Assembly: GCA_019634625.1 (NCBI GenBank) | Contig: JAHCBA010000005.1 | Location: 62,001-126,000 of the forward strand | From: Verrucomicrobiia bacterium | Lineage (GTDB): Bacteria > Verrucomicrobiota > Verrucomicrobiia > Limisphaerales > CAIMTB01 | Length of the DNA stretch: 64,000 nucleotides | Reading direction: 5' to 3' | In this document: positions 20,526 to 31,888 of the stretch, piece after piece | Position numbering within the stretch: position 1 is the first letter of the stretch | Layout of the letters: every line of letters begins with the position of its first letter | Made by a program: the position numbers and the translations under genes | Notes under the pieces: model-generated | What the model was told of the DNA's origin: nothing | Database searches by the model: none | Seen by the model: the letters and a program-made list of their open reading frames with translations, nothing else

Positions 20526-21521
20526 TCATGGCAACACGACGACTCGATAGGACCTCTGGGGCTGGCCGAACGGCACATCGTCGGTAACACACTGAACCTC
20601 GCCGATAGCGCTTATCGCCGCTCCCAGATCCATCCATCCAGGAGGTGTCAAATCTGATCGATACTGCACCTGGTACGACGCCCCAACCGTGGCATTCCAG
20701 CAAATCTCAACCTGCGAGCAACGAATGGTGGCAATCGGGCCGCATAATGGCTTGCGGCAGTAATCGAATGTATTCAGGAACAACGCTTCATTCTGTGAGA
20801 ACGCACCCGGGACCGTCGTGTCCGCGAACGCATCGTGGTCCGAGTAGATGACCACCCGACCCGCCCCGGGACCCAACATTCCTGCCTCGATTACCGCCAG
20901 CGCAACGCCGATCTGATTTGTGGCAAGCGACACAGCGTACGGGCCTAGATCGGTCAGACCCCCGGGAAATACCTGACCAAACGCAGCGACACTGCCAAAT
21001 GGGCCACGGGTGACCGGGTGCGACGACGGCATCGTCACAGTAGCGGTGGCGAAGCCACCTACCGTGCCGTCGACTTGGACTCCAAACGGGGCGAGAACGG
21101 CCTCGTTCGCGGCAGGCGCGCTGGGATCGAATGTTGAGTTATCGGCGAAGACGACTGCCGACCCGCCGTGGCGAACGAACTCCATCACCGCCCCCTGCTC
21201 ATCCTCGGAGAGCGGCTCGATCGCACCTTGCCGGTCGGCTGCCGAACCGATGATAAGTATGTCCACAACAACGAGGCTTGAGGCATCCATCGTTGTGAAA
21301 CCTTCGAATGTGACGTTCGGAAACCGGGCCGCGACCGCGGCCCTGGCCTGGGAGTAGTAGGCTCCCTCGATAAAGGAATAGCTTCCGGCTCGCTGGCTGG
21401 TGAAGCCACCGACGACGAGGCTCGACTTCGATGTGCATGCCAGAGGTGTCTGCGCCTGTAGTGTCAGCGAGACCGCGAGGGGCAGGATTAGGCGTACTAC
21501 GTGATCCAATCCGATCTTCAT
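20526..21521 (-). CDS. Secreted protein of unknown function with C-terminal SxDLxxW-type module
   Basis: 331 residues from ATG 21521. Signal peptide 'LILPLAVSLTLQA'. Residues about 25-240 look like a Rossmann-type or DUF4350/GldG-like fold ('SSLVVVDILIIGSA', 'FVRHGGSAVVFADNSTF', 'GRVVIYSDHDAFAD'), without clear catalytic residues. The last 60 residues are a small beta module 'SYQVQYRSDLTPPGWMDLG' ending 'RSYRVVVLP'; similar endings occur on the four other secreted proteins up to 31777. Two CxxxxC-type pairs near 255-275 could form disulfides. Last gene of the minus-strand secreted cluster, 29 bases after a CsgG remnant. No function can be assigned. Confidence 0.75.
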   Translation of the reverse strand: MKIGLDHVVRLILPLAVSLTLQAQTPLACTSKSSLVVGGFTSQRAGSYSFIEGAYYSQARAAVAARFPNVTFEGFTTMDASSLVVVDILIIGSAADRQGAIEPLSEDEQGAVMEFVRHGGSAVVFADNSTFDPSAPAANEAVLAPFGVQVDGTVGGFATATVTMPSSHPVTRGPFGSVAAFGQVFPGGLTDLGPYAVSLATNQIGVALAVIEAGMLGPGAGRVVIYSDHDAFADTTVPGAFSQNEALFLNTFDYCRKPLCGPIATIRCSQVEICWNATVGASYQVQYRSDLTPPGWMDLGAAISAIGEVQCVTDDVPFGQPQRSYRVVVLP

Positions 21522-21550
21522 GGCTTTAATGGTATGGTGTCTTTGCAGTG

Positions 21551-21691
21551 TCACAGAACGTCGTCACCGAATACAACCGCGTCATGCCCTTGGCGGATGC
21601 CGTTGTTAAGCACGTTGACGGCGGTCGCTTCCAGCACGGTGATCTTCCCGATCCTGGCTGACTCGGTGAGCCACATGTTTGCCGGCCCGCT
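21551..21691 (-). pseudogene. CsgG-like gene remnant
   Basis: Reading the minus strand from 21691 to the TGA at 21551-21553 gives 'SGPANMWLTESARIGKITVL' followed by 'EATAVNVLNNGIRQGHDAVV'. This aligns without gaps with residues 'SGLADMLVTEVGRIGKFTVL' and onward in the intact CsgG-like protein at 26338-27345; by eye about 20 of 40 positions are identical. It has no start codon context and no N- or C-terminal remainder, and directly abuts the end of the propeller gene. It is best read as the leftover of a duplicated CsgG-like gene in the same operon. Confidence 0.8.
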
Positions 21692-21692
21692 C

Positions 21693-24479
21693 TCAACGGG
21701 TATGAGTTCGGAAGAACAGCCGGGTTTCAGGCGAAATCGATCTCAACAGGTCTGTCGTCGCCGCCTCGCTTACAACATTTGTCCACATCGTCCATTCGAC
21801 CAGGTCCGAGGACTCTTCAACGGTGAAGGCTCTCCCCGCCGGGCCGGAAACGCGGAGGCGGAGTTGACCGGCGTCGAGGAACTCCGCCGACAAGCTGATG
21901 ACTTCGGCAGGCGCGGCAAAGACGCGAATCACTGCTGGTCCCATCCCGAGATAAATATAGCCCCGTGGATCGTAGGCGACACAGCTGGGAATCCCAAGGT
22001 TCTGGCTGGTGTCGAATCCGGCATCGAATGTTCCATCGGGATTGATCCGCGCGTATTTGCTGACCGCATTGCCGAGCACGTTGGAAGCCGTGTCAGAGCT
22101 GTTCTCGCGCCCGAAGATCATCACGATCTTTCCGTCAGCTTGCTCGACCGCGTCGATAAACTGCGGACTCACGGTTGCATTGGCGACGTTGAAGACCGGA
22201 TCAAACGTGCCATCGGATCTCATCAAACGTAACAGATGCTCGCCTTCCACCCCCTGACACACGAGAACGCGGCCGTTCCCAAGGAGCTTCGCGGCAGCGA
22301 TCAGGTTCGAACCGGTGGTGGTATGGAAAGGGCTGAAGTTCGCAGCCTTGTTTCCGCTGGAGTCGAGTTTCATCAGTTGCGAGGCATCCAATCCATTCCA
22401 GGATTGGAAGCCGCCGAACACCCAGATCGATCCAGCCGGATCATGCCCGACACTGGCCAGGGAGTTTGTGTCAAAATTCCACCTTTTGAAGAGGTTTTCA
22501 CGGCCTGACACTGACAACAACTCTGCCAGCGCTTCCGCCCCCGGCCCATTTTGCACGTCGAAAGCCGGGATGACTCTCCCGTGATAGTCCACCAACGTCG
22601 CCTGCATCGCGGCGTTCGTGATCCCGCCGGTGACCACGTTGGTGAACCCTCCGACGAGGACGTAGCCGACACCCGGCCTTTCCGAGATCGAATTCGCCGG
22701 GCCCCCAATCAACTCGATGGGACTGAACGACGGATCATCCGGAAGGCCGGCCTGGTCGGCGAATACCCGTTGGATGATGTACTTGAAGACAGGGACTCGG
22801 CCTCCAGGACCTCGCCCGCCTTGTCCTTGTCGAACATTGCTACTGCATACAAGCCGGCCTTGGGAGTCGATGATGCCATTCTGAAAGGAGTGGCTGGTGG
22901 TTTCCTCGTCCAGGCCGAAGGCACTCCATGCGGATCTTTGGTCAACTACCCCTCCGTCGGGACCGATGCGTTGGATGACACCACTTGTACCGGTCGCCAC
23001 GACACTCCCGTCCCTTCGGACGAACAGGCGGGTGAGGGTGCCACTGCCCATGCTCGCCGGTTTCATCGTGGGATCGTGTGCTCCGTCGCGGCGCTCGACC
23101 ACCTGCACGATGCCAGCAGCCGAAGTTTGCTGCCCGAAGATTCCGCCGTCCGAGACAAGGCAACGATAGTTGCCGGAATCATTGGTTGTCGCATTGGCCA
23201 CGATGAACATTGCGGCGGTCGCATTGGGAATATTCGTGTAGCCCAACCTCCCGGCCGGCTGCTTCTGCCATTGGTAGATCGGATCTACACTCACAGCGAA
23301 GACACTGACGCTCAAAGCGAGGGTTTGGCCCGTCAGGAGTGCGGCCGATCGAGGGTGCTCCGTGACGACGATGCGCGGAGTCGGCGTGAAGTTGACATCG
23401 GCAACAGGAATGCGAAGCAGCCGGACCAAGCTGTCCGCGGCAAGCGCAAACAGGTGCGGACCGTGACGGAAGACATGCCGGGTCCAGGATTGGACAAGAC
23501 TGGCAGGCAACGAGGCGGTCGCGGTCGGAAGATTGTCCCACGTTATCCCGTCAGTGACAGAGAACTTTGGCCCTTCGATGCTGGTTCCCGCAAGGTGGCC
23601 GAGAAAAAGAGTGGATCCGTCCGAGGTGAGATTCCATTGAAAATTTGCGCCCGTCCCCAATCCGGCTCTCGCCTCTGTCCACGAGTCACCGAAGTCGTCT
23701 GTGAAGTAGATGCCCTCGGGCGACCTTGCCCTGAGCGGATCCTCATCGATCGGAATGAAAACCCGGCTGCCGTGGCGAACAAACTGACCGTGGTAAATGC
23801 CAACCGGTGCGGTTGTCTTTCTCCAACTGGCTCCATGGTCCGTCGTCTTGTATATCTCATGAGGCAGAGCATTTGGGATTCGCACACTCACGAGTGCTTG
23901 CCCTGCCCCGGCTATGACGGACTTCGGCTGAGTGCCTGCGGGCAATCCATTCGTGACTTGGTGCCAGTCCATCCCGTTTGCAGACGTGTACACGCCGTTC
24001 CATACCGAAGGGACGTAGTAACGCTCAGACGCGGCGTCATAAGCGATGTCCCGCAGAATCGGAACTGAATCGAGTGCTATACCTGATTCAACGGCCTTCT
24101 CCCATGTCGCTTCCCCGGGCCGAAGCCGATGGAGCGCTGTTGCGCCCACCGGTGTCTGCGGTTGAAGCAGATCCCCGCCGACCCAGACGAACCCGTTCTC
24201 GAATTTCACAAAGTTCAAGGAGAGGTTCGTCAAGTTGTATGAGCCGGTTCCCTGAACCGCGTTGATGGTGTCAAACGTCCGCCCATCCTCGGTCCGATAG
24301 ACGCCCGCAGCGCCCAGGAAGTAGAGGTGTGTGCCGTCACTGGCAACAGGTTGAGTGCGGCTTGATGAGGTGCTGGCTATCGTCAGCGGCCCGGGGACGT
24401 TCGTGGTTATCTCTGTCCACGTCTGAGCAGGTGCGGCAAGGGCCGGAACGATCCATGCGAGGGCAGGCAATTTCTTCAT
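21693..24479 (-). CDS. Large secreted protein: Asp-box propeller, Ig-like domain, delta-60 repeats
   Basis: 928 residues from ATG 24479 ('MKKLPALAWIVPALAAPAQT' is the leader). Residues about 30-365 form a BNR/Asp-box propeller ('KTTDHGASWRK', 'YFTDDFGDSWTEA', 'FSVTDGITWDN'). About 375-460 is an Ig-like domain ('YQWQKQPAG', 'ATTNDSGNYRCLVSDGG'). From 475 to 870 come delta-60-type repeats ('LTRLFVRRDGSVVATG', 'YARINPDGTFDAGFDTS'). The C-terminus is the shared module 'FTVEESSDLVEWTMWTNVV' ending 'TRLFFRTHTR'. Probably cell-surface or extracellular; no enzyme motif seen. Its start is 20 bases after the stop of the upstream delta-60 gene, so they are likely co-transcribed. Confidence 0.85.
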   Translation of the reverse strand: MKKLPALAWIVPALAAPAQTWTEITTNVPGPLTIASTSSSRTQPVASDGTHLYFLGAAGVYRTEDGRTFDTINAVQGTGSYNLTNLSLNFVKFENGFVWVGGDLLQPQTPVGATALHRLRPGEATWEKAVESGIALDSVPILRDIAYDAASERYYVPSVWNGVYTSANGMDWHQVTNGLPAGTQPKSVIAGAGQALVSVRIPNALPHEIYKTTDHGASWRKTTAPVGIYHGQFVRHGSRVFIPIDEDPLRARSPEGIYFTDDFGDSWTEARAGLGTGANFQWNLTSDGSTLFLGHLAGTSIEGPKFSVTDGITWDNLPTATASLPASLVQSWTRHVFRHGPHLFALAADSLVRLLRIPVADVNFTPTPRIVVTEHPRSAALLTGQTLALSVSVFAVSVDPIYQWQKQPAGRLGYTNIPNATAAMFIVANATTNDSGNYRCLVSDGGIFGQQTSAAGIVQVVERRDGAHDPTMKPASMGSGTLTRLFVRRDGSVVATGTSGVIQRIGPDGGVVDQRSAWSAFGLDEETTSHSFQNGIIDSQGRLVCSSNVRQGQGGRGPGGRVPVFKYIIQRVFADQAGLPDDPSFSPIELIGGPANSISERPGVGYVLVGGFTNVVTGGITNAAMQATLVDYHGRVIPAFDVQNGPGAEALAELLSVSGRENLFKRWNFDTNSLASVGHDPAGSIWVFGGFQSWNGLDASQLMKLDSSGNKAANFSPFHTTTGSNLIAAAKLLGNGRVLVCQGVEGEHLLRLMRSDGTFDPVFNVANATVSPQFIDAVEQADGKIVMIFGRENSSDTASNVLGNAVSKYARINPDGTFDAGFDTSQNLGIPSCVAYDPRGYIYLGMGPAVIRVFAAPAEVISLSAEFLDAGQLRLRVSGPAGRAFTVEESSDLVEWTMWTNVVSEAATTDLLRSISPETRLFFRTHTR

Positions 24480-24498: not shown

Positions 24499-26277
24499 TC
24501 AGTTCCCTGTCGCGGGCTTCGCTGGAAGGTGGAGGCGGGAGGCGGGGGTTCGAAGCCGGAGTCGCGGTTCGGATCGAACCACATAGAATCGGAACGGAAG
24601 GCCTGGGGTTGCCGAACCAACGAACTCGTATTCGCCCGGGACCAATTCCCTGGCAGGACCCATCGGCATCCACTGACTCCTCGGCAAACCCAAGAGATCC
24701 GTGGCCAGGACCGTGAAGGTCTCACCCGCCGGGGCCGTGAACTCCATGCGCAACGAACCGTCGCCCGAGAGCGTCACGGCGGTGAACTCAGGTGGCGGGG
24801 ACATGAGGGCATAGTCGGCGAGGGTCTCCACGAGCCCCGAGGTGACGGCCCCATCCGTTACCCGCGCACGGGCCCTCACGGACCCGGTGACTGGAAGCGC
24901 GAGATCGGTGAGTTGCCAGCCTCCCGGAATGCGCACTCCCGCTCCCAGCGCGCTCCAGATCATGCCCCCGTCCGTCGAGAGATCGAACGCGACACCTTCC
25001 GCCTCCGGTGAGGCGCCGCCGCGCAGCCATTCGATCCTGTCGGCCGCCGTGACGGCGAGGTTTTGCGTGGCGGCATCGTTCTTGAGCAGCGCAAGATTGG
25101 CCCGCGGCTGCCCATTGACCCCGGCAAACCTGCCTCCGATCACCACGCTCCCGTCTCCCTGGATGAGGACGCCCGAGACGACAGGAGCAGCGACCTCGGC
25201 GTAGGCGCTGGCAGCGAAGGCGGCATCGATGGTCCCGTCGGGAAGAAGCCTTGCCATGGCGTTGCGAGCGATCCCCCCAACGGCTTTAAAGAATCCGCCG
25301 ATGACGAGTCTAGCATCCGTCTGCAATCCCATGGTGAACACGCCGACGGTTCCGGCGCCCGAGATCTGTGGATCGAAACCCATATCCAGCGAGCCATCAG
25401 GGTGAAGACGGGCCATGTGAGTCCGTGCGGTCCCCGCGACGGAGTGAAAAATGCCCCCGACCAGGATCATTCCATCCGGCTGCTCGCGGATGGCGTACAC
25501 GCCACCGAATTCGCCGCCGGACACGCCGGGATTGAAGTCAGGATCAAGCGACCCGTCGGGATGAAGCCGCGCGAGGTTGGTGCGCGCCACACCGTCGATC
25601 CCCGTGAAGCCGCCTCCCACCAGAATGCGGCCATCAGATTGCCGGACAAGGGCGTTCACAGAAGCGAATCCGCCATCCGCCGACACCCGCGGATCAAAGG
25701 CCGGATCGACCGAACCGTCGGACTCAATCCTCGCCAGATGAGCGCGTTCGATCCCGCCGACGGTGTCGAAGATCCCGCCCAGGATGAACCGCCCGTCCGG
25801 CAGGAGGAGCGTGGTGTACACCCCTGTGAACGAACCCTCCCCCGACACTCTCGGATCGAAGCCCGCATCGAGGGCGCCGTCCGGATGAAGTCGCGCGGCG
25901 AATACCCGCTCAACACCCCCGATCGATCTGAATGCTCCGCCGAGGACGATCCCGCCATCGCCCAGCACGATGATGCTGCTCACATCCCCGCGCACGTCCG
26001 CCTCGAAGCCGGGATCGGGATCACCGTTCGGGAGAAGGCGCACCAAATGGTTCCGTCCAGTGCCTCCTGTACGCAGGGCGACCAGTATTCCATGATCGGC
26101 CTGCACCGTCGCGGTCACGACAAACGGATCGATGACGGGGCGGAATGCCTCGTCCACGTCGCCCGGCGACGGCCTCCCCATCGACATCCCGTTCCCGGCA
26201 AGGATCGAACCCAACACCGCCAGCGCCGCCTTCCGAACGAAGGCCATCCGGTGACGCTCCCATCCAGGTGCCTTCAT
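24499..26277 (-). CDS. Secreted delta-60 repeat protein
   Basis: 592 residues. The leader 'FVRKAALAVLGSILAGNG' is followed by seven or so delta-60 repeats of about 55 residues with the consensus 'ARLHPDGSLDPDFNPGVSG...V.AI..QPDGMILVGG.F..V.G', a beta-propeller-forming motif. Then comes a beta region ('GVAFDLSTDGGMIWSALGAG') and the shared C-terminal module 'FTVLATDLLGLPRSQWMPMG' ending 'FRFYVVRSEP'. Delta-60 proteins are abundant in Verrucomicrobiota and Bacteroidota and are thought to be surface-exposed binding proteins. It sits 60 bases downstream of the CsgG-like gene and 19 bases upstream of the next propeller gene. Confidence 0.88.
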   Translation of the reverse strand: MKAPGWERHRMAFVRKAALAVLGSILAGNGMSMGRPSPGDVDEAFRPVIDPFVVTATVQADHGILVALRTGGTGRNHLVRLLPNGDPDPGFEADVRGDVSSIIVLGDGGIVLGGAFRSIGGVERVFAARLHPDGALDAGFDPRVSGEGSFTGVYTTLLLPDGRFILGGIFDTVGGIERAHLARIESDGSVDPAFDPRVSADGGFASVNALVRQSDGRILVGGGFTGIDGVARTNLARLHPDGSLDPDFNPGVSGGEFGGVYAIREQPDGMILVGGIFHSVAGTARTHMARLHPDGSLDMGFDPQISGAGTVGVFTMGLQTDARLVIGGFFKAVGGIARNAMARLLPDGTIDAAFAASAYAEVAAPVVSGVLIQGDGSVVIGGRFAGVNGQPRANLALLKNDAATQNLAVTAADRIEWLRGGASPEAEGVAFDLSTDGGMIWSALGAGVRIPGGWQLTDLALPVTGSVRARARVTDGAVTSGLVETLADYALMSPPPEFTAVTLSGDGSLRMEFTAPAGETFTVLATDLLGLPRSQWMPMGPARELVPGEYEFVGSATPGLPFRFYVVRSEPRLRLRTPASRLHLPAKPATGN

Positions 26278-26337: not shown

Positions 26338-27345
26338 CTACTTCGCCTTGACCACCCAGCCGGCCTTGACCTCGAGATCGCCCTCGTAAACCGCCCGGCT
26401 TCTCTCCTCCTGGGCCGATTGGATGGTCAATTCCCCCACCAGCTTCTCCTCCGTAAAGACAACCACGTCATGCTCATCCCGGATCTCGATGGCCTCGTAG
26501 AGATTCAGCTTCTCGCCGTCCCTGAAGCCCTGCGCCTTGCCAAGCGACACGATGATCGCCTGCCGGCTCGGTGCGGCAAGCACCTTGCCCGCCGTGGCGC
26601 GCCTGGCCTGGAACTCAGCGCTCGCCGCGGCACCCGCGGCCTGATCCCTGGCGGCGATCCGCTTCACGCGACCGGACTCCGGCAGTGTCACGGGCCGCAG
26701 TTCCTCGACAATCATCCCGAGCGCATCGACCGTGGCCTTGACCAGAGCGCTGTCCATGAACTCACGGTTGTCGTGACTGATGCCGCCCCCGCTGCCCCTG
26801 CCGAATCCGGAAACATTGAAGCTCGTGCCTCTCTTTTCCGCCGTGGCCGAACCGGTCTTGATGACCCGCCGGTGCGAGGCATCCACCAGCCGCCAGTCGA
26901 TCCGCACATCGACCGAACTCTGCCGGATGCCCACGTTGCCCAGGCCCACGCGCCGGGCGATGCCGCCGACGCCGGTATTGGATTCCTGGGCGCCGAAGCG
27001 CGTGACCTTGCCGGTCAGCATGAAGTCCGCGGCGGCAAACCCGCCCTTCTCGACCATCTCAGCCGCGTCGATCCAGCCGTCCTGGCCCTCGCGGATTTCG
27101 TCCTTGAGCACATCGAGATGGATCGTTTCGAGCACGGTGAACTTGCCGATTCTTCCGACCTCCGTGACCAGCATGTCGGCCAGCCCGCTGCCCAGCGCGG
27201 GCTGCCAGTACTGGATGTGAACCCGGTCCCCGGTGAATGGCGCCACGATCAGGGTCGGAGGTTCGCCTTTGGCAACCCTCGACGTTGTCGCCGCGCCCGA
27301 GATCACGAGAAGGGTCAGCAGGGTGGAGATGCAGTGTCGTTTCAT
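26338..27345 (-). CDS. CsgG-like secretion/assembly protein
   Basis: 335 residues with leader 'ISTLLTLLVISGAATTSRVA'; there is no lipobox Cys, so it is not a classical CsgG lipoprotein. The core matches the CsgG superfamily: 'LIVAPFTG', 'GSGLADMLVTEVGRIGKFTV', 'AAADFMLTGKVTRFG', 'VDVRIDWRLVDASHRRVIKT' and 'ALVKATVDALGMIVEEL'. Residues about 255-335 add a beta-rich C-terminal domain ('VSLGKAQGFRDGEKLNLYEA', 'VGELTIQSAQEERSRAVYEG'), a FlgT-like feature. CsgG forms the outer-membrane pore for curli; in other family members the role is assembly scaffolding. It heads the run of secreted repeat proteins, suggesting it helps to display or export them. That role is inferred. Confidence 0.85.
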   Translation of the reverse strand: MKRHCISTLLTLLVISGAATTSRVAKGEPPTLIVAPFTGDRVHIQYWQPALGSGLADMLVTEVGRIGKFTVLETIHLDVLKDEIREGQDGWIDAAEMVEKGGFAAADFMLTGKVTRFGAQESNTGVGGIARRVGLGNVGIRQSSVDVRIDWRLVDASHRRVIKTGSATAEKRGTSFNVSGFGRGSGGGISHDNREFMDSALVKATVDALGMIVEELRPVTLPESGRVKRIAARDQAAGAAASAEFQARRATAGKVLAAPSRQAIIVSLGKAQGFRDGEKLNLYEAIEIRDEHDVVVFTEEKLVGELTIQSAQEERSRAVYEGDLEVKAGWVVKAK

Positions 27346-27512
27346 ATCATGGACGGTGTTGGTGTGCTTGAGTGGTCTTGGAGGTTGTACAGGTCATCCT
27401 GGTTCGTCTTCAGCCTGCGGGATCGAACGGTCTGCCTTTCCCGCGCTGCCGAGGGAGTCGTTGGGCATCTTCATCGGGCATGGTGAAGTCCAGGTGGGTG
27501 GCAGGCATGGCT

Positions 27513-30500
27513 TCAAGGCGTCGGCGGGCGCAGCCGGAAGAACCGTTGCCCGGGTTCGACAGGGATCGTGATCCGCACGTTGAGGCCGTTGTCGTTCACC
27601 GCGCCGATGTCCTCCCAGCCATCCGGGTCATCGACGACCTCGCTCCACTGCAACACATGCCCTGTCAGCGCGGACGGCCAGTTCACGGTCACGGTCTCGT
27701 TCTGCAGCGCGTCCCGCTGCCAAGCCACGCGCAGTTGCTTGCCCTGCTCGGGCAGGCCGGTGGCGGAGATTTGATAGTTGCCGGTGCCACCCGCGGTGTT
27801 GTTGGCCACCACCACCAGGAAAATGCCGCTGTCCGGGGCGGTGAAGTTGAGCTGCGCCAGGCTGGCGTGCGTGTGGGAGCCGATGAACTGACCATCGGGA
27901 CCATAGAGCAGGAGCAACGGCGTCAGGCTCGTTGTGGTCACTTCCTGGACTTGCAGAGTGATGTTGTTCCCTTGATCCGCTTCAAACGTCCAGGGATCCA
28001 GATCGGCGAGTGTGACGGCGCCTTCATGGTTGCCGCCGTTGGTCAACGGCCCGCCCTCGTCCCCGCCGGGGATGATGAACGCGCCCGGGATCTTCAGGTA
28101 GTGGAGCCGGTAGGTGCCGATCAGGCCGGTTCCGAAACTGACCAGGGCAGTGTAGCTGCCCGCCACCCCGGTCACGAAGCTGATGCTGGCGTCATTGTGA
28201 GCCGAAGTGCTCGCGACCAACTCGCCATCGGGCCCATAGACACCCAATCGGAGCGTGGGTATGGCGGAGTTGCCCGAACCACCGGTGAGCGCGGCCAGGC
28301 GCAGGAGCACCTGCTCGCCCGCAGACACTTCAAAGGTCCAGGGATCCAGATCGGCGAGTGTGACGGCGCCTTCGTGGTTGCCGCCGTTGGCCAGCGGCCC
28401 ACCCTCGTCCCCGCCGGGGATGGTGAAGGCACTGGGAAGCTTCAAGTAGTGCAGGCGGTAGGTGCCGGTCAGGCCGGTTCCGAAACTGACCAGGGCAGTG
28501 TAACTGCCCGCCACCCCGGTCACGAAGCTGATGCTGGCGTCGTTGTGAGCCGAAGTGCTCGCGACCAACTCACCCTCGGGCCCATAGACACCCAATCGGA
28601 GCGTGGGTATGGCGGAGTTGCCCGAACCCCCGGTGAGCCCGGCCAGGCGCAGGAACACCTGCTCGCCCGCAGACACTTCAAAGGTCCAGGGATCCAGATC
28701 GGCCAGCGTAACGGCACCTTCGTGGTTGCCGCCGTTGGCCAGCGGCCCGCCCTCGTCCCCGCCGGGGATGGTGAAGGCACTGGGAAGCTTCAAGTAGTGC
28801 AGGCGATAGGTGCCGGTCAGGCCGGTTCCGAAACTGACCAGGGCAGTGTAGCTGCCCGCCACCCCGGTCACGAAGCTGATGCTGGCGTCGTTGTGAGCCG
28901 AAGTGCTCGCGACCAACTCACCCTCGGGCCCATAGACACCCAATCGGAGCGTGGGTATGGCGGAGTTGCCCGAACCGCCGGTGAGCCCGGCCAGGCGCAG
29001 GAACACCTGCTCGCCCGCAGACACTTCAAAGATCCAGGGGTCCTCCTCCCCTACCGCAATAGCCCCTTCGTGATTCCCGCCGTTTGTCAGGGTTGTTCCG
29101 TTCGCGGGCTCGGGCGAGAACGGCCCGGCTTCGAGCAGATAGTTGATCCGATAGTTGCCTGAACCTCCTATCAACAGGGAGTCCAGGACCACGTTGAACG
29201 TGCCGGTGGTCGGCAGGATGAGTTTGAGCGTGCTGGCCGAGGCACTGCCCGGGACGGTGTCCACGCTGTATCCGACCAGCGTGCCGTTGCCATCGTACAC
29301 CCTCGCGCGGGGTGCGTAGGTCGCGGCGCCCGTCAACTGAGTCAGGCCGAGCGTCACCCGGTCCCCGGCATTGGCGGTGAAGGTCCAAACGTCCAGGTCG
29401 CCGAGCGTGGTGCTGCCGTCCTGATTGCCGGTGACGAGCGGCATGCCATCGTCCAAGGGCGGGGTGATGAACGAGCCGGGCGATTTCAGATAGAACAGCC
29501 GGTAGTTGCCGGTGCCCTCGACCAGGCTGGAATCGAGCACGACCGTGAAGCTTCCTTCCTCGTCCGGCACAAAATCCAGCCGCGCTTCAGACGCATTCGA
29601 GTTGCTTGCGCCCGCCGCGTGGCCCACGAGGAGACCCCGGGCATCATAGACCTGGAGGCGTGGGGCGAAGGTGGCATCACCCGAAGTTTGCGCCGCGCGC
29701 AAAAATACGCGCTCGCCGGCCGCCGCTTCGAACGTCCACGCATCCATGTCACCGAGGCTGATCGCCCCATCGTGGTTCCCCCCGCTGGTGAGCGGGCCTC
29801 CCGTGTCGCCCGATGGCGTGGTCACGGCGCCTGGGAGTTGCAGCCGGTGAATCCGGTAATTGCCCGTGCCTTCGGCGGTGGCGGAGTCGATGGCGAGCAT
29901 GAACGTGCCCTCCGCCGTGGGTTGAAACAGCAGCCGCGCCTCGGAAGTGCTCGAGTTGGAACCACCAGCCGCCTCAGCCAGGAGTCCTCCATCAGCGCCG
30001 AACACGCGCATCCGGGGAACGAATCCCGTGCCGCCGGAGAGTTGTGCCAGCCGGAGCAGCACCGAGTTGCCCGTCGCCGCCTCGAAGCTCCAGACGTCCA
30101 GGTCGCCGATGGCGATGGCGCCTTCGGAGCGGGATTCGTTGGGCAGCGGGCCGCCGGTTTCGCCGGAGGGGACCGCGGCGTCCCCGGGTTGGCGCACGAA
30201 ATCCATGCGGTAGTTGCCGGTGCCATTGGCCAGTGCGGAATCCACGATGACCGTGAACGTCCCGGTGGAGGTGGCGACATGGTCCAGGCGGGCGGAAGAC
30301 GTCGAGGAATCACTGGCTCCGGCCGCCCGTCCGACCAGGTTTTGTCCGGCATCGAAGACGCGGAGGCGCGGGGCGAAAGTCGTGCCGCCGCTGGTCTGGC
30401 TGGCGCGCAGGTAAATGCGATCACCCTCCTGGGCGGTGAAGGTCCATGTGTCCTCGTCCCCGGCAGGAGAGATGGCGTCGCTGTGATTGCCGGCGTGGGT

Positions 30501-30758
30501 GAGGGGGCCGTCAGCCCGCACCGTGAGCAACCCGGCCATCAGCATTGACAGCGAAACAGTCAGCGCCTTGACGGCAGAAGCCCGGGCATGAAGAACGGTC
30601 GGCGTTGAGATCCGCGGCTGGAAATCAGTCAGGGAAGCGCGCAGACGCCGATTCGGCGACAGAGGCTCAAGGACGGGGCCAAGGGGAGTTCGCGCCGGGC
30701 GTAATTGCCCGTGGGAAGATTGCGCTGTCGGTGGTACTTCAGGGGTGGGCTTTATCAT
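27513..30758 (-). CDS. Secreted protein with eight pre-peptidase-C-type (PPC) repeats
   Basis: Up to 1081 residues; the start is uncertain because the hydrophobic leader 'VKALTVSLSMLMAGLLTVRA' lies 62 residues in, and no ATG directly precedes it. Eight repeats of about 115-120 residues follow, each beginning like 'GGPLANGGNHEGAVTLADLD' and 'PWTFEVSAGEQVFLRLAGL', the PPC beta-sandwich. Units five to seven are almost identical in DNA as well. The end 'LQWSEVVDDPDGWEDIG...GQRFFRLRPPTP' is the shared C-terminal module. There is no peptidase domain, so it is probably an adhesin or carbohydrate-binding surface protein. It is upstream of the CsgG-like gene with a 167-base gap. Confidence 0.85.
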   Translation of the reverse strand: MIKPTPEVPPTAQSSHGQLRPARTPLGPVLEPLSPNRRLRASLTDFQPRISTPTVLHARASAVKALTVSLSMLMAGLLTVRADGPLTHAGNHSDAISPAGDEDTWTFTAQEGDRIYLRASQTSGGTTFAPRLRVFDAGQNLVGRAAGASDSSTSSARLDHVATSTGTFTVIVDSALANGTGNYRMDFVRQPGDAAVPSGETGGPLPNESRSEGAIAIGDLDVWSFEAATGNSVLLRLAQLSGGTGFVPRMRVFGADGGLLAEAAGGSNSSTSEARLLFQPTAEGTFMLAIDSATAEGTGNYRIHRLQLPGAVTTPSGDTGGPLTSGGNHDGAISLGDMDAWTFEAAAGERVFLRAAQTSGDATFAPRLQVYDARGLLVGHAAGASNSNASEARLDFVPDEEGSFTVVLDSSLVEGTGNYRLFYLKSPGSFITPPLDDGMPLVTGNQDGSTTLGDLDVWTFTANAGDRVTLGLTQLTGAATYAPRARVYDGNGTLVGYSVDTVPGSASASTLKLILPTTGTFNVVLDSLLIGGSGNYRINYLLEAGPFSPEPANGTTLTNGGNHEGAIAVGEEDPWIFEVSAGEQVFLRLAGLTGGSGNSAIPTLRLGVYGPEGELVASTSAHNDASISFVTGVAGSYTALVSFGTGLTGTYRLHYLKLPSAFTIPGGDEGGPLANGGNHEGAVTLADLDPWTFEVSAGEQVFLRLAGLTGGSGNSAIPTLRLGVYGPEGELVASTSAHNDASISFVTGVAGSYTALVSFGTGLTGTYRLHYLKLPSAFTIPGGDEGGPLANGGNHEGAVTLADLDPWTFEVSAGEQVLLRLAALTGGSGNSAIPTLRLGVYGPDGELVASTSAHNDASISFVTGVAGSYTALVSFGTGLIGTYRLHYLKIPGAFIIPGGDEGGPLTNGGNHEGAVTLADLDPWTFEADQGNNITLQVQEVTTTSLTPLLLLYGPDGQFIGSHTHASLAQLNFTAPDSGIFLVVVANNTAGGTGNYQISATGLPEQGKQLRVAWQRDALQNETVTVNWPSALTGHVLQWSEVVDDPDGWEDIGAVNDNGLNVRITIPVEPGQRFFRLRPPTP
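28000..29040. repeat. 348-bp tandem repeats inside the PPC gene
   Basis: Three consecutive units at a constant 348-bp spacing (for example the string GTCCAGGGATCCAGATCGGC near 28337 and 28685) are nearly identical, including synonymous sites; the third repeat near 29033 diverges at its edge. Each unit codes 116 residues. The near-identity implies recent duplication or gene conversion, and the copy number may vary between strains. Confidence 0.88.
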
Positions 30759-30883: not shown

Positions 30884-31777
30884 CTATTCCGGAACAACCT
30901 CAGCCTTGAAGTAGCCGGGTGTCCCGAACTCCCGAGTCGAGAAGAGGTGATAGAGGGTGTCCCCGGTGCCCACGAACGGGGCCGCGACCGGGCTCCAGTT
31001 GGCCAGATCGGGGGAGCGGAGAAGCTGGTAGGTGGTTCCGGGTACGGTGGGCGTCCCGATTTCAATGGCGGTTGCGGAAGTCATCACCCATTCCGCCGGC
31101 TCGATCTGGATGGAGTGAACCAGCGTGTCGTAGAAGATGTCCCCGGCGGCATCCACTGCGAAATCGACCCTGTCGCCCTCCTTCAGTCCAACACCAAAGC
31201 TGTAGCCGGAACCCGCCGTGTCGCCCCCGCTCACCAGGCGTTCGAACACCTTCCGTCCGTTGATGTACACGGTGAACCGGACGCCATTGCCGCCGGCGGA
31301 ATGTTTGGCGAGGTGACCAGAGATGCGCACCAGGCCCGTCGTCCCGCTGATCCACCGCCGGATCGCCCAATGTTCCTGAGCGTCCCCGGCATGGGGATGC
31401 GCGCTGGTGGCGGTGACTTCGGTCCAGAACGAGCCGATCCTCCAGGCAGGGCTCCCGAGGTTGCCCGGTTCGAAGACAGGGAATGGAGTGAAGTCGTGTT
31501 CGGGATCATAACCGGGTGTCGTGTCGGCGGTGACATTGTAGTAGCCGTAATGCCAGTTGTTGGCGCCCTGGACGTTCGAGAATCCGGACACGGAATCCGC
31601 AATGGGCTGGGCGGAGGCCGAAGCGCAAAAAAATGCCAGGATCAGTCCGGCAGGGAGGCGTTTCACGGACGCGAGGACGGCAGATCGAGCCTGGGACTCC
31701 ACGCGGGACAATCGCCAGTCCATGGAGGCGGAAGAGGGTCGGCGACTTCGGACTGGGTGGCTTTCTGGCGAGGTCAT
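30884..31777 (-). CDS. Secreted beta-sandwich protein with C-terminal SxDLxxW module
   Basis: 297 residues from ATG 31777, or 279 from ATG 31723; the leader is 'LPAGLILAFFCASASAQ'. The body ('NNWHYGYYNVTADTTPGYDP', 'TGLVRISGHLAKHSAGGNGV', 'VDFAVDAAGDIFYDTLVHSI') resembles lectin-like or carbohydrate-binding sandwiches that Verrucomicrobiota and Planctomycetota attach to secreted proteins. The C-terminus 'TYQLLRSPDLANWSPVAAP' ending 'GYFKAEVV' is the shared module. It lies just downstream of the kinase-regulator pair at 31933-35855 on the same strand, with an 18-bp palindrome in the gap, so it may be a direct target of that system. Confidence 0.78.
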   Translation of the reverse strand: MTSPESHPVRSRRPSSASMDWRLSRVESQARSAVLASVKRLPAGLILAFFCASASAQPIADSVSGFSNVQGANNWHYGYYNVTADTTPGYDPEHDFTPFPVFEPGNLGSPAWRIGSFWTEVTATSAHPHAGDAQEHWAIRRWISGTTGLVRISGHLAKHSAGGNGVRFTVYINGRKVFERLVSGGDTAGSGYSFGVGLKEGDRVDFAVDAAGDIFYDTLVHSIQIEPAEWVMTSATAIEIGTPTVPGTTYQLLRSPDLANWSPVAAPFVGTGDTLYHLFSTREFGTPGYFKAEVVPE

Positions 31778-31888
31778 TCTTGAAGTGGCGGTGTGTTGGG
31801 CCTTCAGGGGCTTGAGAAGCATGCCAGCGGGCCGGGTCGTCCGGGAATACTCCTTGCGGGTGATGCCGGGTGGCCGGCACGACCTCCC

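Follow-up and report, generated by a model that had tools for sequence, protein, structure and literature searches.

A 138-bp remnant of a second CsgG/FlgT-like gene in the genome of a Verrucomicrobiia bacterium

The analysed stretch of 64,000 nucleotides (hereafter the window) carries, on its minus strand, an intact CsgG/FlgT-like gene and, about 5 kb away from it, a short frame lying between two codirectional genes (Table 1). This frame (21691-21551) comprises 46 codons and a stop, compared with the 335 codons of the intact gene. It fits tightly between its neighbours: the upstream gene ends with its stop codon at 21693, a single base (21692) ahead of the region of homology described below, and 32 bases lie between the end of the remnant (21554) and the inferred ATG of the downstream gene (21521). 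Both neighbouring genes putatively encode secreted proteins, as judged by eye from their N-terminal ends.

Table 1. Features of the remnant, its neighbours and the intact gene (window positions)
Feature	Position	Strand	Remarks
Downstream neighbour, 331 aa	20526..21521	-	start codon inferred
Stop codon closing the remnant frame	21551..21553	-
Piece 2 of the remnant (probable)	21554..21579	-	fits intact-gene codons 294-302
Piece 1 of the remnant	21580..21691	-	matches codons 53-89 of the intact gene
Inferred junction of the internal deletion	21580..21601	-	overlaps the end of piece 1; 16/22 bases like each repeat
Upstream neighbour	21693..24479	-	start codon inferred; Ig and delta-60 matches under curated cut-offs
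Intact CsgG/FlgT-like gene, 335 aa	26338..27345	-	parent or sister copy; Pfam CsgG PF03783, E 1.7e-19
Right repeat	26466..26487	-	gene nt 859-880; best match of the left repeat in the gene
Left repeat	27078..27099	-	gene nt 247-268; matches the junction

Both neighbouring genes share a C-terminal module of about 60 residues, delimited by eye, which recurs in many large, apparently secreted proteins and is marked by a D-L-x-x-W type motif and FFR/FYR-like terminal residues. In the window it is also found in genes 24499-26277, 27513-30758 and 30884-31783, and outside it in two loci with orthologs of the intact gene (L083, 5789-10360; L072, 9127-10275). Residues ~265-331 of the downstream protein match within many large frames in all nine genomes searched (own included). 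The module might be a sorting or anchoring domain.

The protein encoded by the intact gene passes the gathering score of PF03783 with 70.4 bits (cut-off 20.8) and remains under the cut-offs of two other Pfam families, LpoB (22.1 vs 22.3) and FlgT_C (15.9 vs 27). A profile built from 12 sequences matches solved CsgG chains (E ~0.006). The structure model of the protein is of moderate quality (mean pLDDT 72.8, pTM 0.51). When it was compared with known structures using Foldseek, FlgT (3w1e) ranked second with an E-value of 1.9e-13; it aligns over residues 19-335 with a Z-score of 12.9, but with an rmsd of 19-21 and a TM-score of 0.33 over the whole chain. Among the 50 entries listed, 3w1e and 8z5n (LPHT ring) were the only two to span both domains of the model.

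CsgG, the curli secretion channel (PF03783; PDB 4uv2, 4uv3), aligns with the model over approximately residues 27-223; unlike CsgG, the intact protein has an additional C-terminal domain. With FlgT, a component of the flagellar basal body, the likeness extends over both domains of the model. However, the FlgT_C score is under the cut-off, and in three of the eight genomes searched, all of which carry the intact gene, the flagellar protein FlgI was not detected, one of the three being only 80% complete; FlgI was found in the other five (own included). Neither CsgF (PF10614) nor curlin repeats (PF07012) were found in any of the eight genomes at E 0.1, a search that diverged partners may escape. 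F1/V1 ATPase chains also align to model residues 236-335, which we read as a common small fold. The name 'CsgG-like' given to the gene by the sequence-only reading is right at the level of the domain, and 'CsgG/FlgT-like' is more exact for the intact gene. In 10 of the 11 papers listed for CsgG with Verrucomicrobia, titles and opening lines of abstracts reveal no evident work on this gene family.

The sequence-only reading had proposed that the 46-codon frame matches this CsgG-like protein, with about 20 of 40 residues identical and no gaps. The TBLASTN search of the window that it called for recovered the stretch at an E-value of 6e-7. Codons 1-37 of the frame (21691-21580) align without gaps with residues 53-89 of the intact protein, and 20 of the 37 residues (54%) are identical, so that the ungapped match stands and the count is refined. 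At the DNA level, blastn with the intact gene finds 70.5% identity over 112 nt, ungapped (E 4.7e-9). Profile HMMs of 12 and 27 sequences, both including the gene of this genome, detect the remnant in the window at E 1.5e-7 and 8.6e-7, respectively; the Pfam CsgG profile picks up the intact gene only.

The matched stretch is short (37 residues), which is the one point that speaks for a chance similarity. However, its BLOSUM62 score of 91 was equalled by none of 20,000 shuffled sequences, the best of which reached 57, and together with the TBLASTN E-value and the ungapped DNA identity this renders chance a practically negligible explanation. The 138-bp stretch is a remnant of a second CsgG/FlgT-like gene; the earlier claim that at least two genes of the family were once present and that one of them decayed is borne out by homology far above chance. 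In the whole genome of 6.74 Mb the remnant is the sole other significant match to the intact protein (E 5.9e-4). No third significant copy was found, as the next match, on contig C36, has an E-value of 1.06 and was not recovered by the profile HMM at E 0.5. Likewise, a six-frame search of the 20.4-25 kb region with the 12-sequence HMM (filters off) gave no other gene pieces below E 1, the next match being at E 3.2.

Similarity to the colinear part of the intact gene ends after residue 89. The last nine codons of the remnant fit best to codons 294-302 (rank 1 of 327 offsets): scored against 27 sequences, this placement gives 18.0, versus 7.4 for the next one and -0.07 for the colinear continuation; against the gene of this genome the values are 18 and 11 for the best and the next offset. 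The tail keeps V295, V296 and F297, three residues that do not vary across 26 aligned sequences. Against the 27 sequences, and anywhere in the protein, its score is reached by 469 of 20,000 shuffles, and by 269 of 16,105 9-mers of the window; in smaller series of 1000 shuffles it was reached 164 times against the own sequence and 24 times against 12 sequences.

The junction between the two parts resembles two short imperfect repeats of the intact gene. The left and right repeats share 16 of 22 bases, the best of 943 offsets, and the right end defined in this way, which was derived independently of the tail, is the very end implied by the tail. The similarity of the two repeats is highest in the gene of this genome among 26 sequences, and of the 26,335 in-frame pairs of 22-mers in the gene that are separated by 300 nt or more, only three are equally alike, the 22-base window having been picked after the junction was seen. 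On account of the tail offset and the matching repeat ends, we take the stretch to be the scar of an in-frame deletion: it is likely that the tail is derived from the same gene's 3' portion and that about 204 codons were lost in frame between the repeats.

It might instead be that the remnant consists of codons 53-89 alone and that the tail is unrelated to the gene, an explanation which we regard as possible, with distinctly the smaller share of the probability, and which can hold together with a duplicate origin of the remnant. The match of the tail to codons 294-302 has a chance rarity of only ~2%, and the tail DNA also resembles the antisense strand of a gene, identified by eye as hsdR-like, in one of eight genomes searched (G003; 40/51 bases, 2 gaps, E 0.015). 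This match, of L099 1501-1550 with plus-strand positions 21554-21603, was judged to be due to chance: Pfam and NCBIfam give no hit for the plus-strand peptide at E-values up to 10, and the 122-aa hsdR-like piece is unmatched in the own genome, in a search run without a positive control. Moreover, the deletion ends that the tail implies fall on the best repeat found for the left end, which counts against an unrelated tail. The earlier description of a gene 'decayed to a fragment' therefore holds as regards the decay, while the single fragment is most likely two pieces joined by a deletion.

Projected onto the model of the intact protein, piece 1 lies in the first domain and takes in the greater part of helix 49-66, together with strand 70-72 and helix 74-88; as model residues 75-102 have a pLDDT below 50, the second of these helices is of low confidence. 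Piece 2 corresponds to the start of strand 295-311 in the C-terminal domain. Of the CsgG-like domain the remnant, unlike CsgG itself, retains just 37 codons, and the long strands 108-178 are missing altogether. Without these strands, its product presumably could not build the assembly of the parent protein.

The distribution of the family was studied in three samples. Of 58 near genomes, seven are matched by the intact protein, among them the genome under study; one of the seven matches is weak. In a class-wide sample in which at most five candidates per genome were scored, 26 of 384 genomes gave a match at E 0.001 or better, of which 10 were strong (E <1e-40; the own gene and one split gene included) and the rest weak. 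A scan of named genomes gave no loci with the single protein as a query and 27 with an alignment; 26 of these are clear relatives, the titles of which are mainly Verrucomicrobiota and include one Victivallales bacterium (Lentisphaerota). The trees and alignments exclude the weak and distant locus L097, and alignment A2 also excludes L091, the gene of which is cut by a contig end.

No clear second copy was found at any of the 39 ortholog loci, i.e. L057-L068 (12) and L071-L097 (27), many of the former being the same records as members of L071-L096. Each of the 12 loci has one gene, with borderline extras at E 0.075 (L057) and 0.36 (L062), and each of the 27 has one match, with borderline extras at E 0.095 (L082) and 0.061 (L092). 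Whole-genome searches likewise gave a single match per clear-ortholog genome, except for G245, in which the ortholog (L068, 9639-10690) is split into two overlapping frames, apparently by a frameshift or an assembly error. Two matches each were obtained in G060, G075 and G106, which carry distant kin only. In G106 they include two adjacent, weakly CsgG-like genes (C32:61548-63007; L041, L056), possibly an intact tandem pair of distant kin.

The comparison with related genomes that the sequence-only reading had called for was attempted by way of the two flanking genes, and it brought to light no relative with an intact or half-decayed copy at the site of the remnant. Neither flanking gene matches the 39 loci around the orthologs at E 1e-4. 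Among the matches in nine genomes (own included), the upstream gene has only partial counterparts, and the downstream gene has no full-length counterpart, being met chiefly via its C-terminal domain.

Within the family, the nearest kin of the remnant is, on well-supported comparisons of aligned codons, the intact gene of the same genome. Over 38 codons their DNA identity is 0.693, versus at most 0.596 between the remnant and any of 26 relatives. DNA trees join the two with support values of 97/93 (13 rows) and 98/96 (28 rows); the 92/91 of the protein tree is not decisive. Four nucleotide states are common to the remnant and the intact gene alone when compared with 11 orthologs; with any single ortholog the remnant shares zero to two. 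In AU tests on the 38 protein columns four other groupings were kept (p 0.061-0.169), so that the placement of the remnant depends mainly on DNA. The best reading of these data is that the duplication occurred within this lineage, after its split from the 26 sampled relatives.

The remnant could also be a xenologous scrap, derived from a family gene of another bacterium rather than from a local duplication. The family is patchy, as its presence in only seven of the 58 near genomes indicates, the intact gene itself groups outside the copies of its genus-mates, and other placements survive the AU tests. On the other hand, remnant and intact gene are neighbours in the 28-row DNA tree, and the intact gene clearly leads in DNA identity to the remnant; a foreign origin seems unlikely to us. 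We consider it very probable that the stretch is the pseudogene remnant of a lineage-specific duplicate, a reading against which its length of just 38-46 codons counts.

The intact gene has peculiarities of its own. It groups with L083, its closest relative, and with L071 and L072 (99% SH-aLRT), and not with the copies of its genus-mates (L079, L081), and no terminal branch of the tree is longer than its own (0.83); transfer or fast evolution of this gene is possible. A gene for a PPC-repeat protein (35% over 714 aa) adjoins the CsgG/FlgT-like gene both in L083 (4585-10360), where it lies directly downstream, and in the window (26338-30758), where it lies directly upstream.

The two copies differ in the way they have changed. 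With states polarised by relatives, parsimony counts on this short sequence place 26 changes on the branch of the remnant (7.5 synonymous and 18.5 nonsynonymous; codon positions 9/7/10; pN/pS 0.77) and nine on that of the intact gene (6 synonymous and 3 nonsynonymous; codon positions 2/1/6; pN/pS 0.16), a difference with a p-value of 0.006. An earlier polarisation by the 11 orthologs had given 25 versus 10 changes, and the relative-rate excess of the remnant passes a chi-square of 3.84 with seven of the 11 single orthologs and fails to do so with four. The nonsynonymous changes of the remnant are close to the neutral expectation (18.5 vs 19.8), in a comparison that has little power at such length, and over all sites the remnant has changed about as fast (26/114 = 0.23) as the intact branch has at synonymous ones (6/27 = 0.22), as an early loss of function predicts. 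Of the 13 residues invariant among 12 sequences (own included), it keeps nine and has lost four.

The remnant thus does not show purifying selection on its amino acids and does show the near-neutral substitution pattern of a bacterial pseudogene. Near-neutral drift is well supported by these counts and suggests that function was probably lost soon after the lineage-specific duplication. This bears on the earlier claim that the divergence shows the duplication to be old, which cannot be upheld: the branch of the remnant, with its near-neutral rate, carries the greater part of the divergence, and in the 28-row DNA tree the duplication is younger than the separation from the 26 sampled relatives. 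The pairwise distance between the two copies (dS 0.84, dN 0.30) is inflated because constraint was relaxed on one of them. As a functionless copy diverges fast, a large divergence does not imply an old duplication.

A functional product of the stretch was also considered, namely a small protein of ~41 codons read from the ATG at 21676, for which the old gene would have been co-opted. An open frame that runs in the direction of the genes on both sides speaks for it. However, when 26 changes were simulated neutrally, the frame also stayed open in 11,786 of 20,000 runs, and so its being open is no argument for coding. The pN/pS value, the even spread of changes over codon positions and the loss of four of the 13 conserved residues argue against such a protein, as do its termination partway through a modelled strand of the C-terminal domain and the failure of a sigma-70 type scan to find a promoter- or terminator-like site in 21400-21850. 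We therefore hold a small protein to be very improbable; that its 41 codons, with the helix-strand-helix and one further strand of the parent, were kept and still interact with the assembly which the intact protein forms, e.g. as a dominant modulator, is less probable again. Rfam gave no match at gathering scores in 21300-21900 either, and the remnant is best read as a 138-bp spacer whose sequence bears no sign of function.

Taken as a decayed duplicate, the stretch would have the following history, with the order of events as we infer it. The CsgG/FlgT-like gene would have been duplicated in this lineage, presumably locally, and one copy would have lost its function early and then drifted near-neutrally. 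Codons 1-52 would have been lost, so that the remnant now starts right behind the stop codon of the upstream gene. An in-frame deletion between the short imperfect repeats (codons 83-90 and 287-294) probably removed about 204 codons from the interior, and the loss of all that lay beyond approximately codon 302 would have left the present spacer.

In passages of Liu et al. (2004, PMC522871), three origins are suggested for prokaryotic pseudogenes, among them disabled native duplications. Like the pseudogenes treated there, the remnant lies between genes and is homologous to an intact gene elsewhere in its genome. Unlike them, it would not satisfy the criterion of more than one disablement given in those passages, its 37 codons having neither frameshift nor premature stop; instead, it was cut by large deletions. 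In Salmonella, according to another study (PMC2916853), young pseudogenes are rapidly removed by deletion.

The stretch is an ordinary pseudogene fossil, the product of ordinary gene decay. A remnant first seen by eye is now confirmed computationally, and its wider importance is little. A fossil of 138 bp still tells from which gene it came and that it drifted near-neutrally, and the short repeats to which it probably owes its largest internal loss can be pointed out as well.
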